Positions 59,154-64,000 of a stretch of DNA of 64,000 nucleotides are shown here, in pieces. A program made the position numbers and the translations under genes. How positions within the stretch are numbered: position 1 is the stretch's first letter; every line of letters starts with the position of its first letter. Origin of the DNA: Uliginosibacterium gangwonense DSM 18521 (GTDB lineage: Bacteria > Pseudomonadota > Gammaproteobacteria > Burkholderiales > Rhodocyclaceae); contig NZ_KB892864.1 in assembly GCF_000373965.1 (NCBI RefSeq), forward strand, positions 83,031 to 147,030, given 5' to 3'. Below the pieces are notes generated by a model. The model was not told the DNA's origin. It was given only the letters and a program-made list of their open reading frames with translations, and searched no databases.

Positions 59154-59999
59154 ATGGCTACCTCCACTCTCAATTTGCAACGCATTGCACAGGGACGCAC
59201 GGCCGAGATATTCGCTTGGGATGAATCGCGGATTCTCAAGCTCTACTTCCAGCACTTTCCGCCGCAGGTCGTCAGCCACGAGGCCCACATCAACCGGCTG
59301 CTGGCCTCAAGCCGGCTCCCGATGCCACACCTGCACGAAGAAGTGGTTGTCGACGGACGCCACGGATTGATATTTGATCGTGTGGAGGGGCCGACCTGTC
59401 TGCACCGTCTGACCAAAGCGCCCTGGCAGGTCGCCACCATCATCCATGACATGGTCAAGCTTCAGCAGGAGATCAACCAGCGCACTGCACCACCTGAACT
59501 GCCCTCGCTCAATGAATATCTGCGCAAGAACATCCGGCGCGCCCCACTGCTCAGCGAGACAGAACGCAAGCATATCCTCCTGCACCTGGACCAGCTTCCA
59601 GCAGGGAACACCTTATGTCATTTTGATTTCCATCCCGACCAGATCATCATGACTGCCCGTGGCCCGATGGTGATCGATTGGCCAAATGCCGTGCGCGGAA
59701 GTCCGGTTGCCGATCTCGCCCGCACCTGGATCATGCTGGCCATGTCCGCGCCTCCGGGCACGGGGCCTCTGGCAAGGCGCATGCTCTCCATCGCCCAGCT
59801 CTTCGTTTCCCGCCAATACCTCGCACGTTACCTGGGCAACACTGCAATGGGGTGCGGGCGTGATGACTTCAGAGCATGGCTGCTGCCCGTGATGGCCGCA
59901 CGGCTCAGTGAAGGGATCAAGGAAGAACAGGACGCCCTGCTTGGGCATATCCGCCATTTATTACGGAGCAAGGATTTTTCCGCCTTCCTTTTCTATTAA
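59154..59999 (+). CDS. Aminoglycoside phosphotransferase/choline-kinase-fold protein
   Basis: A 281-residue kinase-fold protein. The catalytic loop LCHFDFHPDQII near residue 158 has the catalytic aspartate pattern of APH enzymes, and VIDWPNA near 178 is the metal-binding DFD-like motif (with tryptophan as the middle residue). The N-terminus has a short glycine region (QGRTAEIFAW) and a lysine in ILKLYF for ATP. Members phosphorylate antibiotics or small metabolites such as choline or hydroxylated sugars. No resistance claim is justified. It is coupled to the LysR gene and its 3' end overlaps the convergent glycosyltransferase gene by four bases. Confidence 0.85.
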   Translation: MATSTLNLQRIAQGRTAEIFAWDESRILKLYFQHFPPQVVSHEAHINRLLASSRLPMPHLHEEVVVDGRHGLIFDRVEGPTCLHRLTKAPWQVATIIHDMVKLQQEINQRTAPPELPSLNEYLRKNIRRAPLLSETERKHILLHLDQLPAGNTLCHFDFHPDQIIMTARGPMVIDWPNAVRGSPVADLARTWIMLAMSAPPGTGPLARRMLSIAQLFVSRQYLARYLGNTAMGCGRDDFRAWLLPVMAARLSEGIKEEQDALLGHIRHLLRSKDFSAFLFY

Positions 60000-61156
60000 G
60001 CAGCCGTTTGCACTTCCCCAAGACGCCCCTCAGAAGCGGCCAGCAGATTCGACTCAAACTCACCAATCACCGCATCCCAACTGATTTGCGCCACACGCGA
60101 GGCTGCAGCCTCGCGGCAGATTTGACGCAAGGACGCATCTTGCGCCATACGTACCGCTGCGGCGATAAAAGCCTTCTCGTTGCCCGCCTCAACAGTCAGG
60201 CCGTTCTGGCCGTCGGAAATCAGCTCGGCGGCGGCAGCATCATGGTAGGCCACCACGGCAAGGCCGCTGGCCATGGCTTCGGGTACGACATTGCCATAGG
60301 TTTCGGTCAGACTCGGGAACAGAAAGATATCCGCACTGGCATAACTCGTAGCCAGCACCTCCCCACTCTGTGCCCCCGTAAAGATGTGGCCAGGATTGGC
60401 ACGCTCCAACCCGGCCCGCGAAGGACCATCGCCCACCCACACCATGCGACTGGTGGGTGCAACATTGGCCAGGGCCGCGTATGCCCGCGCTGCCAGCTTC
60501 AGATTTTTCTCGGGCGCCAAGCGCCCCACGTTAATGACAACCAGATCATTATCACCAACGCCCCAGCTTTTGCGTAGCTCGGTACTCCTACGCGAGGGAT
60601 TGAAAAGCTGTGCATCAATGCCACGCCCCAACAGACGCGCACCGGGTACCTGCGCACGGGTCAGGCTGTCCACCAATGCGGTGGTAGGCGCCATAGTGGT
60701 GAGCGTACGCCGATGGAATCGGCGCAACCATGCACTGATCAAAGGGCCGATCAGTCGCGCACCGTAATGCTTGCTGTAACCATCGAAATGAGTATGGTAG
60801 CTTGATGTCACGGGAATACCCATATGGCGTGCCGTGCGCAAGGCTGACCAGCCCAGAGGGCCTTCGGTCACGGCATGAACCACGTCAGGGCGCTGTGCCT
60901 GCCACAACTCGCGCAACACCCGATCTGCAGGCATGCCAAATTGCAGATCCTTATAGCCCGGCAAAGGCAGGCCACGCACCAGGGTCTCGTTGCCGGCATC
61001 CTGATTCTGCTCATTGCGCTGGCGTGGCCGCACCACGTGAACAGCATGGCCACGCGCGCGCAGACCCTTGGTCAGACGTGCCATGGTCAGCGCAACACCA
61101 TTGACCTCAGGCGGCCACGTCTCGCTGACAAGGCTGATGCGCAGGGATTGTGTCAT
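59996..61156 (-). CDS. GT4-family glycosyltransferase, second in the lipid-remodelling-like operon
   Basis: A 386-residue GT-B glycosyltransferase of family GT4 (the MgtA/PimB/Agt group). The N-terminal ETWPPEVNGVALTMARLTKGL and a histidine in TSSYHTHFDG form the acceptor domain. The EX7E motif is ETYGNVVPE near residue 284, with SLTETYGN before it. The start at 61156 shares one base with the dgkA stop (TGATG) and GGAG is upstream. Being last in an operon with a PlcP-like phosphatase, another GT4 enzyme and DgkA, it may add a second sugar to a glycolipid or use a different donor. Polysaccharide synthesis is the alternative. Confidence 0.85.
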   Translation of the reverse strand: MTQSLRISLVSETWPPEVNGVALTMARLTKGLRARGHAVHVVRPRQRNEQNQDAGNETLVRGLPLPGYKDLQFGMPADRVLRELWQAQRPDVVHAVTEGPLGWSALRTARHMGIPVTSSYHTHFDGYSKHYGARLIGPLISAWLRRFHRRTLTTMAPTTALVDSLTRAQVPGARLLGRGIDAQLFNPSRRSTELRKSWGVGDNDLVVINVGRLAPEKNLKLAARAYAALANVAPTSRMVWVGDGPSRAGLERANPGHIFTGAQSGEVLATSYASADIFLFPSLTETYGNVVPEAMASGLAVVAYHDAAAAELISDGQNGLTVEAGNEKAFIAAAVRMAQDASLRQICREAAASRVAQISWDAVIGEFESNLLAASEGRLGEVQTAA

Positions 61157-61542
61157 CAGAATTCTCCAATCAGGATGCAGGCCCACACAGCCAGCACATT
61201 GATGAGTGCGATCAGTACAGAAGCACTGCCAATATCCTTGGCCCGCTTGGATAGCTTGTGATGCTCCAGGCTGACGCGGTCAACCGTGGCTTCAATGGCC
61301 GAATTGATCAATTCCACAATCAGCACCAGCAAGACACTGGCCACCATCAGCGCATGCGCAGTCGGCGACAAATGCAACCACAGGCGCAGTGCCACGGACA
61401 CCGGGATCAATACCAAGGCGAGAAACACCTCCTGCCGGAAAGCATCTTCAAGCCGATAAGCATCGGCAATGCCGTCGATGGAATAATGCAGGGCGTTCCA
61501 CAGGCGGGTCAGGCCGGTCTTTCCTTTGAATGGGCTTTCCAT
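61156..61542 (-). CDS. dgkA: Diacylglycerol kinase
   Basis: Phosphorylates diacylglycerol to phosphatidate in the inner membrane, recycling lipid. The 128-residue protein has the prokaryotic DgkA features: RLWNALHYSIDGIADAYRLEDAFRQE at the start, three transmembrane helices, and the signature VELINSAIEATVDRVSLEHHKLSKRAKDIGSA near residue 75. The ORF overlaps the upstream glycosyltransferase gene by 34 bases and the downstream one by one base, so the genes form a compact coupled operon. Confidence 0.95.
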   Translation of the reverse strand: MESPFKGKTGLTRLWNALHYSIDGIADAYRLEDAFRQEVFLALVLIPVSVALRLWLHLSPTAHALMVASVLLVLIVELINSAIEATVDRVSLEHHKLSKRAKDIGSASVLIALINVLAVWACILIGEF

Positions 61543-62711
61543 GTGCTTTCAGTCGAATTGGTGCGGTTAACAAGTTGGCGGTAAAGATCGGCAAGGCGGG
61601 CAGTCAGCGTTTCGTCCGACCAACTGGTTGCCCAGGCACGTCCATGCGTGCGCATCTGCATGCGCAAACCAGGGTCAGAAGCAACCTTGACCATGGCCGC
61701 AGCAAAGGCTTCCAGTTCATCAGGAGGGGCAATGGCACCCGACTCTTCAACCAGAATGTCACAGGTACCCATCTTGGCAAGTGCAACAACCGGGAGTCCG
61801 GCTGCCATGGCTTCGAGCAGGACCAAGCCCTGTGTTTCGGTATGCGAAGCAAATACAAACATATCGGCAGCGGCATAGCAGTCGGGTAATTCATGAGTGC
61901 GGTCCAGATAACCCACAAACCGCACGGCATCGCCCACGCCCTGGCTGCGTGCATGTTCCTGCAAGCCATGCAGCGCTGGGCCTTCGCCCGCCACAAGCAG
62001 CATCAGGCGCGGCTGACTCCGCAGTGCAATGCGCGTGGCATCAATCAGGAAATCGATATTCTTCTCATAGGCAGCGCGGCCAACATACAGTGCAACGGGT
62101 CGATCATGCGCAATTTGGTAGTGCTGGCGGAAACGCTCACGGTCACCGTGCGAGAAACGTCCCAATGGGATGCCTGTGGGAACAATATGCATCGGGGATG
62201 TAACGCCGTATTCAAGCAGACGCTCGCGCATCTGGCTAGAAGGAACAATGACCGCATCCAGCTCATTACATTGGCGCCGGGAGATATTGCGTGCCAGCGA
62301 CTTCGTCCACGATGCCGGAACAAACGGAGCGTAATGCTGGAGGTATTCCTCAAACAAAGTGTGGTAACTGGACACCACCGGCAGGCGAAGTTTGCGTGCA
62401 GCAGCCACCCCTGCACCATGCGCCGAGAAAGGCGTCTGGATATGCACGACATCACATTGGGCTGCGGCACGAATCGCCTGCTGGCGGAAGAAACCGGGGC
62501 GGACGAAGCGATCTTCACGATCCATCGGCACCGTCCAACCCGGCAAGCGTATGACATTTTCCTCTTCATCCTCTCCGCCCTTGGTGTAGCGCGGAGCAAT
62601 CAGCGTACTGGCAACGCCTTGCGCAGGCAGTTGCTGGCGATAAGTCTGGATGGCCGTGGAGACACCGTTGACGCGTGGGAAATAAACGTCAGAGAGCATC
62701 AATATGCGCAC
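61509..62711 (-). CDS. GT4-family glycosyltransferase adjacent to a PlcP-like gene (Agt candidate)
   Basis: A 400-residue GT-B glycosyltransferase. The N-terminal MLSDVYFPRVNGVSTAI and SYHTLFEEYLQHYAP mark the Agt/MgtA/PimB-like GT4 group. PTGIPLGRF, ALYVGRAAYEKNIDFLIDA and the EX7E motif ETQGLVLLE near residue 297 complete it. The start is GTG at 62711 with GAGGAG upstream, four bases after the stop of the PlcP-like gene; extension further upstream overlaps that gene and encodes nothing related. Next to plcP, a glycosyltransferase of this type makes glycolipids from diacylglycerol in alphaproteobacteria. Sugar donor (UDP-glucose, UDP-glucuronate or GDP-mannose) is not readable. Confidence 0.85.
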   Translation of the reverse strand: MRILMLSDVYFPRVNGVSTAIQTYRQQLPAQGVASTLIAPRYTKGGEDEEENVIRLPGWTVPMDREDRFVRPGFFRQQAIRAAAQCDVVHIQTPFSAHGAGVAAARKLRLPVVSSYHTLFEEYLQHYAPFVPASWTKSLARNISRRQCNELDAVIVPSSQMRERLLEYGVTSPMHIVPTGIPLGRFSHGDRERFRQHYQIAHDRPVALYVGRAAYEKNIDFLIDATRIALRSQPRLMLLVAGEGPALHGLQEHARSQGVGDAVRFVGYLDRTHELPDCYAAADMFVFASHTETQGLVLLEAMAAGLPVVALAKMGTCDILVEESGAIAPPDELEAFAAAMVKVASDPGLRMQMRTHGRAWATSWSDETLTARLADLYRQLVNRTNSTESTWKAHSKERPA

Positions 62712-62715
62712 GAGA

Positions 62716-63498
62716 TCAGTTCTCCTCAGTAAAGAGATCGGCGGTGGCGTCCTGCCCCAAAGGAGCCTCCACCCAGGTGACAAGTTCCAAACGGCCATCG
62801 AAGTGTTCGACAATGCCGGTACAGCTATCGACCCAGTCACCACAATTGACGTAGGTCACGCCTTCTATGTCGCGGATAGCCGCCCAGTGAATATGGCCGC
62901 AGACCACCCCGTGCATCTCGCGTGCAGCGGCGGCACGGATCACGTTGCGTTCAAAATCGAAAATGAACTCCAGCGCGGTTTTGACTTTTCGCTTGGCATA
63001 ACCCGCCAAAGACCAGTAACCGGTAATGCCCATACAACGACGCACAAAAGACAACCAGATATTGATGCTGACCAACATGTTGTAAGCCGCATCGCCCAGC
63101 ACGGCCACCCATTTGTGATAGCGCGTGACCTGATCGAATTCGTCGCCATGGATAAGCAGCAGACGTTTGCCATCTGCCGTCTCATGGACCCACTCTTTTT
63201 CTACCCGGATGTCACCAAAGCGGGTTCCACAATAGGCACGCACCGCTTCATCATGGTTCCCCGGAACAAACACCACCTGCTCACCGTGGCGGGCTCGACG
63301 CAACACTTTCTGTATCACCGTGTTATGCGTTGGGCGCCAGGCAAGGGAGCGCTTCATGGCCCAGAAATCCACGATATCCCCAAGCAGATACAGGTGATCG
63401 GCCGGATATTCGCGCAAAAAATCCAGTAGGCGCTCGGCCTGACAGGCCTTGGTGCCCAGATGGATATCAGAAAGAAAGACAGATCGTACGTGTGGCAT
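62716..63498 (-). CDS. PlcP-like manganese-type metallophosphoesterase (phospholipase C family)
   Basis: A 260-residue cytoplasmic metallophosphoesterase of COG2908, the group that holds LpxH and PlcP. The metal-site motifs are complete: SDIHLGTKACQ near residue 8, YLLGDIVDFW near 36, VPGNHDE near 76, LLIHGDEFD near 116 and VCGHIHWAA near 201. The wording around them (THNTVIQKVLRRAR, GDAAYNMLVSINIW, VTYVNCGDWVDSCT) matches PlcP, which removes head groups from phospholipids under phosphate starvation, rather than LpxH. The start at 63498 begins MPHVRSVFLSDIHLG. A Pho-box-like repeat lies 34 bases upstream of it. It is first in a four-gene operon with two GT4 glycosyltransferases and dgkA. Confidence 0.85.
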   Translation of the reverse strand: MPHVRSVFLSDIHLGTKACQAERLLDFLREYPADHLYLLGDIVDFWAMKRSLAWRPTHNTVIQKVLRRARHGEQVVFVPGNHDEAVRAYCGTRFGDIRVEKEWVHETADGKRLLLIHGDEFDQVTRYHKWVAVLGDAAYNMLVSINIWLSFVRRCMGITGYWSLAGYAKRKVKTALEFIFDFERNVIRAAAAREMHGVVCGHIHWAAIRDIEGVTYVNCGDWVDSCTGIVEHFDGRLELVTWVEAPLGQDATADLFTEEN

Positions 63499-63531: not shown

Positions 63532-63549
63532 GTGACATGTCATTGACAC
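63532..63549 (-). promoter_or_regulatory. Pho-box-like direct repeat upstream of the PlcP-like gene
   Basis: On the minus strand GTGTCAATGACATGTCAC holds two TGTCA half-sites with an 11-bp period, as in the Pho box CTGTCAT-N4-CTGTCAT; each 7-mer matches at five positions. Ten bases after it comes CATGGT, a possible weak -10, the same spacing as in E. coli phoA. Binding by PhoB is inference. A possible longer reading of the plcP ORF would cover this site but has no family sequence. The rest of 63499-63761 shows no other clear element. Confidence 0.6.
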
Positions 63550-63761: not shown

Positions 63762-64000
63762 ATGGAAAATGTGGTAATCGTGGCAGCCGCACGCACTGCA
63801 GTTGGAAAATTTGGTGGTAGCCTCGCCAAAGTGGCCCCGGCGGAACTGGGGGCGACCGTAATCCGGGGCCTGCTGGCCAAGACCGGGGTGGCGGGTGACC
63901 AGATCAACGAAGTGATCCTCGGGCAGGTACTCACTGCGGGCCAAGGGCAAAACCCTGCCCGCCAAGCCGTGATCCGCTCCGGGCTGCCTGAGGCCGTGCC
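63762..64000 (+). CDS. Acetyl-CoA acetyltransferase (thiolase), N-terminal part
   Basis: The first 79 residues of a thiolase that condenses two acetyl-CoA to acetoacetyl-CoA (or the reverse), cut by the window end. It starts MENVVIVAAARTAVGKFGGS, and GQVLTAGQGQNPARQA precedes where the active-site cysteine would come, just past the window. AGGAG stands at good distance from the ATG. PhaA for polyhydroxybutyrate or AtoB-type roles cannot be told apart from this fragment. Confidence 0.9.
   Translation, partial: MENVVIVAAARTAVGKFGGSLAKVAPAELGATVIRGLLAKTGVAGDQINEVILGQVLTAGQGQNPARQAVIRSGLPEAV

Follow-up and report, generated by a model that had tools for sequence, protein, structure and literature searches.

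Four adjacent genes on the minus strand of a 64,000-nucleotide stretch of the Uliginosibacterium gangwonense DSM 18521 genome (contig NZ_KB892864.1, positions 83,031 to 147,030; hereafter the window) encode a PlcP-type phosphoesterase, a GT4-family glycosyltransferase (GT1), the diacylglycerol kinase DgkA and a second GT4-family glycosyltransferase (GT2). We propose, with a probability of roughly 0.6, that they constitute a phosphate-sparing lipid-remodelling operon, in which diacylglycerol (DAG) is glycosylated by two enzymes acting in parallel and recycled by DgkA. The identities of the genes at the family level, the layout of the operon, its conservation and a recurrent linkage of plcP, dgkA and glycosyltransferase genes are established by the comparisons reported here. 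All four open reading frames were confirmed to be present in the source genome (5.02 Mb, 35 contigs) and run head to tail, with a 4-nucleotide (nt) gap between plcP and the GT1 gene, a 34-nt overlap between the GT1 gene and dgkA and a 1-nt overlap between dgkA and the GT2 gene, in agreement with a preliminary description of the locus. Given these overlaps, a single transcript for all four genes appears plausible.

The same description had read the first gene product, a COG2908 metallophosphoesterase, as PlcP, an assignment that our results bear out. The protein is 50.8% identical to the PlcP of a Pseudomonas aeruginosa plasmid record (L097) with an adjoining glycosyltransferase gene, a pair that we equate with PA3219/PA3218 from gene order, with which the neighbouring cyclase gene agrees. 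Its best matches in named genomes come mostly from the Rhodocyclales and other Betaproteobacteria (best 80 of 253). On the hidden Markov model for LpxH it scores 46.5 bits, far short of the cut-off of 190.35, and a quick tree built from 22 proteins places it with PlcP, the 19 PlcP proteins being split from three LpxH proteins with a support of 100 in the Shimodaira-Hasegawa-like approximate likelihood ratio test (SH-aLRT); on the LpxH side, three of six candidate loci gave sequences too short for use. In the alignment, PlcP has GNHD where the LpxH proteins have GNRD. In principle, the phosphoesterase might serve as the genome's LpxH, with the cluster being part of lipid A synthesis, given that both enzymes belong to the same superfamily and that database records call PlcP relatives UDP-2,3-diacylglucosamine diphosphatase. 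However, a second gene in the genome (C5:75401) fits the LpxH model far better, with 285.7 bits. Together with the low score and the SH-aLRT split, this separate gene rules out the LpxH identity, refutes the lipid A reading, to which we assign next to no probability, and removes the concern that the enzyme could be the only LpxH copy. We conclude that the phosphoesterase is PlcP and, by homology, a predicted phospholipid-specific phospholipase C.

The preliminary description had assigned the first of the two glycosyltransferases to the Agt type, but it is the second that nests there. GT2 shows 47.6% identity (327 bits) to a P. aeruginosa glycosyltransferase at locus L103 and 33% to Agt1. The L103 gene has plcR, a phospholipase C gene and a DegV-family gene as neighbours; based on the first two and on the PAO1 gene order, we take it to be PA0842/Agt2. 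A quick tree built from 31 proteins places Agt2 inside the clade of GT2 and its relatives (support 99). GT1 and its relatives are joined by a Thiodictyon enzyme in a second clade (100), and Agt1 falls with a Sphingomonas enzyme (97); where the two large clades meet, long branches prompted a warning from the program. GT2 is thus an Agt2-type enzyme by its grouping, and it is predicted to use UDP-glucuronate and DAG. GT1 carries the Pfam domains Glyco_transf_4 and Glycos_transf_1, and the best of its NCBIfam models is that for alpha-monoglucosyl-DAG synthase, with 164 bits (cut-off 400). Its identity of 29% to both P. aeruginosa Agt proteins and its separate clade rule it out as Agt1, the PA3218 orthologue, and it is best described as a putative DAG glycosyltransferase apart from both Agt proteins.

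Judged by its profile, the window's DgkA is an ordinary member of PF01219 (112 bits, cut-off 22.3). It aligns at 1e-26 to solved diacylglycerol kinases of Escherichia coli and retains the ivElinsaiEa and rakD motifs, which have catalytic roles. The genome contains a second dgkA (C1:399208), whose product is 53% identical to the operon copy. Of the 93 DgkA proteins placed in a quick tree (55 clustered and 38 lone copies), 48 form a single group (support 88, not starred) that holds 47 clustered copies, including that of the window, while eight clustered copies fall outside it; the alignment had 122 columns only, and most forks are weak. The genome's second copy sits in a group of 11 rows, 10 of which are lone copies (97). 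Two short motifs near the N-terminus are distributed unevenly, with PFKG present in 44/55 clustered and 16/38 lone copies and ESP[FYH]KG, by inspection of the sequences, in 55/55 and 13/38, respectively.

The presence of DgkA between two glycosyltransferases, which had been singled out earlier as the novel feature of the locus, is not peculiar to this strain. A search for the same gene order found PlcP-GT1-DgkA-GT2 on one strand in 31 of 80 fetched loci (corresponding to the best 80 of 253 PlcP matches, some cut by contig ends) and in 14 of 101 genomes of the family, the window's included. This recurrence is far beyond chance and marks DgkA as a true component of the locus that appears repeatedly rather than as a one-off. 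The remaining loci show the arrangements PlcP-GT1-GT2 (10, and an 11th with GT2 in two pieces), the same with GT2 convergent (8), PlcP-GT1-DgkA (3), PlcP-GT1 (11), PlcP alone (13) and other orders (3), with GT1 accompanying plcP in 66 of the 80. The compact form, with at most 150 nt between GT1 and DgkA, is rarer (8 of the 31 same-order loci). At the thresholds used, plcP is present in 68, GT1 in 64, dgkA in 95 and GT2 in 65 of the family genomes. Among the 14 with the window's order, plcP and dgkA lie 1.2-1.5 kb apart in 12 and 2.8 kb apart in two; another seven have the order GT1-DgkA-GT2-PlcP, and further permutations occur in others. When gaps of up to 3 kb are allowed, 51 of the 95 dgkA-bearing genomes have dgkA clustered with one or more of plcP, GT1 and GT2; among the 67 genomes with both plcP and dgkA, 32 have the two no more than 5 kb apart. 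In Dechloromonas-type loci, the plcP-GT1 pair is parted from dgkA-GT2, or from GT2, by genes on the opposite strand (L034, 8200-9356, minus; L033, 8052-9368, minus), which encode a cNMP-binding protein, a protein without Pfam match or an OprB-type porin. GT1-DgkA(-GT2) clusters are also found at L128 (genome G090) and L131 (G032), where no plcP match was obtained at an E-value of 1e-30, indicating that the DgkA-glycosyltransferase unit can exist without PlcP.

The linkage extends beyond the family. In a class-wide sample of 140 genomes other than the window's own, 43 have plcP and 31 have both plcP and dgkA; in 7 of these 31, all outside the family and each from a different one, the two genes lie within 5 kb of each other, compared with an expectation of 0.14. 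Two of the seven loci read PlcP-GT1-DgkA. In three others (L212, L213, L215), the partner glycosyltransferase is Agt1-like (45-53% identity) and dgkA lies divergent from or upstream of plcP, and in L214 and L216 no glycosyltransferase was found in the stretch covered. An inherited neighbourhood may contribute in L212 and L216, since both carry a gcvP-like gene. Other settings of plcP were also encountered. On a plasmid of Mitsuaria sp. 7 (L098, 5911-8977), it lies directly upstream of the polyphosphate kinase gene ppk1, with an exopolyphosphatase-family gene opposite, which is another phosphate-linked plcP context. In addition, plcP and an adjoining glycosyltransferase gene occur on three P. 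aeruginosa plasmid records, of which L097 resembles a chromosomal segment, and each of eight listed Roseomonas plasmid records has two plcP-like places.

The link to phosphate suggested in the preliminary description is supported for the clade and only weakly for the window's genome. Upstream regions were scored against the 14-position Pho-box consensus CTGTCATNNNNCTGTCAT. At least 11 matches were found in 24 of 81 plcP upstream regions (the 80 loci and the window), whereas among 3240 stretches drawn at random from these loci the share was 1.67%; the loci are related, and the counts thus not independent. Sites with at least 10 matches favour distances that are 11 bases apart (46, 57, 68). A survey of tight operons with dgkA covered 55 rows, consisting of 22 plcP-first, 26 DgkA-first and seven GT1-first clusters. 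Among the plcP-first operons, 5/22 have at least 11 matches and 9/22, including the window, at least 10, compared with a background of 0.64% and 3.8%, respectively, of 12160. Five matches of at least 11 among the DgkA-first clusters proved to be a ribosome-binding-site artefact. Likewise, candidate boxes before a separated dgkA (at least 11/14 matches in 15/23 loci) were discounted, as six of the 23 include a GGAG ribosome-binding site and terminate on the start codon of dgkA, while nine lie on the opposite strand and face a divergent gene; in the Dechloromonas-type loci, such opposite-strand sites face the intervening genes. The candidate core upstream of the window's plcP, TGTCA-N6-TGTCA, has no second exact match anywhere in the 64-kb window, where 0.08 would be expected, and the window shares a similar block with L018, L019 and L021. 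PhoB is present in the genome; a scan for sigma-70 promoters and terminators gave nothing above shuffled sequences. Taken together, these results suggest that Pho control is likely for the clade and plausible for the window's genome.

Table 1. Features of the lipid-remodelling locus and its surroundings (positions in the window).
Feature	Position	Strand	Remarks
PlcP-type metallophosphoesterase	62716-63498	-	260 aa; Metallophos_2 and Metallophos Pfam matches
GT1, GT4-family glycosyltransferase, putative DAG glycosyltransferase	61509-62711	-	400 aa; GTG start
DgkA, integral-membrane diacylglycerol kinase	61156-61542	-	128 aa; PF01219 (DAGK_prokar)
GT2, GT4-family glycosyltransferase, Agt2 (PA0842) relative	59996-61156	-	386 aa
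Candidate Pho-box core TGTCA-N6-TGTCA	63533-63548	-	35-50 nt upstream of plcP start
APH-family phosphotransferase gene	59154-59999	+	convergent with GT2, 4-nt overlap at GT2 end; outside module

On the other side of the operon, a gene that by eye appears thiolase-like begins divergently near position 63762.

The closest parallel is the lipid renovation system of P. aeruginosa (PA3219, PA3218, PA0842), which likewise combines one phospholipase with two GT4 enzymes, PlcP, Agt1 and Agt2, has predicted Pho boxes and, as described in PMC8528852, makes monoglucosyldiacylglycerol (MGDG) and glucuronic acid diacylglycerol (GADG). The likeness lies in PlcP and in the Agt2-related GT2. However, the gene for Agt2 lies elsewhere in P. 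aeruginosa (PMC8528852), whereas that for GT2 belongs to the operon, and the GT4 enzyme that follows PlcP in the window is not close to Agt1, the plcP partner in P. aeruginosa. Moreover, in the P. aeruginosa plcP-agt1 record, whose gene table may not be complete, no kinase is annotated for about 6 kb around the pair, unlike the window, where DgkA separates the glycosyltransferases. Marine Alphaproteobacteria and Methylosinus also pair PlcP with a DAG glycosyltransferase (PMC4796936, PMC9239053), and Pho boxes are reported for plcP-agt (PMC4796936), but the word 'kinase' is absent from the main texts of both papers. In Pseudomonas putida BIRD-1, DagK rises together with PlcP under phosphate depletion, both being listed as Pho-responsive lipid-remodelling proteins, although the account in PMC5082522 gives no linkage of the two genes and DagK may not belong to the DgkA family. 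On the phosphate islands of HIMB59, pst and phoBR are accompanied by genes for a diacylglycerol kinase, a glycosyltransferase and an 'LpxH', but neither the kinase nor the glycosyltransferase is credited by the authors with a direct role related to phosphate (PMC10734472). The 'LpxH' of the islands may be PlcP, which would make this an alphaproteobacterial plcP-glycosyltransferase-kinase grouping. In the open-licence PubMed Central (PMC) literature, outside of which most subscription papers lie, we found no description of dgkA within a PlcP-Agt locus; PlcP and DgkA are co-mentioned in only one paper of that set, an expression study with dgkA in a gene list.

The locus is thus best explained as a variant of the known PlcP-Agt pathway to which DgkA has been added for the recycling of DAG. 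The substrates of the enzymes, the parallel rather than sequential action of the glycosyltransferases, the direction of recycling and the control by PhoB are what we infer here. Under phosphate limitation, PlcP would split membrane phospholipids into DAG and the phosphorylated headgroup. GT2 would then cap DAG, most likely with glucuronic acid to give GADG, as Agt2 does, and GT1 would in parallel add a neutral hexose such as glucose, giving MGDG. The steps assigned to PlcP and GT2 are proposed because characterised relatives carry them out, that of GT1 on account of looser homology and gene context. The step assigned to DgkA rests on the known reaction of its family: using ATP, the kinase would convert unglycosylated DAG into phosphatidate for phospholipid synthesis and so prevent a build-up of DAG and set the glycolipid-to-phospholipid ratio. 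Balancing the two lipid classes would accordingly be the putative purpose of DgkA, as had been proposed before.

Several observations weigh against this interpretation. GT1 falls under the cut-off of every curated model shown. In 23 of the 31 same-order loci, 650-2275 nt separate plcP-GT1 from dgkA-GT2, making a single transcript unlikely there, and the intervening stretches of the listed separated loci carry opposite-strand genes. DgkA is not obligatory at the locus: dgkA clusters with none of plcP, GT1 and GT2 in 44 of the 95 family genomes, and of the three genomes by which the four-gene survey represents the genus, only that of the window has DgkA together with PlcP. G001 has PlcP-GT1-GT2 without DgkA (its contig seems identical with L020, from Uliginosibacterium aquaticum), and in G005 the pair DgkA-GT2 lies apart from PlcP. 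As for phosphate control, a matrix built from 21 sites of relatives gives the window's candidate box a p of about 0.08, and the exact core has eight matches genome-wide against three for a reversed control, with no recognised pst or pho gene, by eye, beside the other seven. None of the seven GT1-first clusters has a box of at least 11 matches, and one has 10.

The unclustered dgkA copies, the 30 of 67 single-dgkA family genomes in which the clustered copy is the sole one and the resemblance of some lone copies to clustered ones would all fit a DgkA that is an ordinary housekeeping kinase, present in this operon by chance and without a remodelling-specific role. We nevertheless regard this as unlikely, because another DgkA is encoded at a different place in the window's genome, the dgkA frame overlaps GT1 and the linkage recurs in separate families with different partners and orientations. 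Less probable still is a role in redirecting DAG, in which PlcP would break down phosphatidylethanolamine and DgkA would channel phosphatidate into phosphatidylglycerol (PG) and cardiolipin, shifting the headgroup composition. This scenario follows from the standard phospholipid pathway and fits the gene-context data, but the glycolipid predicted from GT2 is anionic and would itself make up for the charge of PG. A comparably low probability attaches to the possibility that the pathway is as proposed, except that GT1 and GT2 act in sequence to produce diglycosyl-DAG, in line with the earlier suggestion that the second enzyme adds another sugar. Both genes share one operon, and among the plcP-adjacent glycosyltransferases cited in PMC4796936 is one for which the synthesis of di- and triglycosyl-DAG was confirmed. 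However, Agt1 and Agt2, when expressed singly in E. coli, each made their own glycolipid, MGDG and GADG, respectively (PMC8528852), so that parallel products are to be expected of GT1 and of GT2, which is 48% identical to Agt2. In addition, plcP can have just one of the two glycosyltransferases close to it, GT1 in seven genomes (P+1+) and GT2 in another seven (2+P+), although the missing one may lie elsewhere in those genomes. Two parallel glycolipids, as in P. aeruginosa, are therefore likelier than sequentially added sugars.

Our results identify GT1 as a frequent but uncharacterised partner of plcP. The carriers of the locus include Dechloromonas and an Accumulibacter bin (L096), which are of kinds known from settings with fluctuating phosphate. 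In the published accounts considered here, the PlcP-Agt pathway runs one way, from phospholipid via DAG to glycolipid. With a conserved kinase acting on DAG, the branch point would become reversible, and this would account for the way in which cells keep DAG from building up and quickly restore their phospholipids. It is tempting, if still rather speculative, to regard DgkA as the missing third enzyme of PlcP-driven remodelling, a dedicated DAG valve that has been recruited or retained beside plcP in varied arrangements to afford a controlled, reversible cycle. If this is true, a cycle of phospholipid, DAG and phosphatidate would set the glycolipid share of the membrane and quickly reverse it as phosphate varies.

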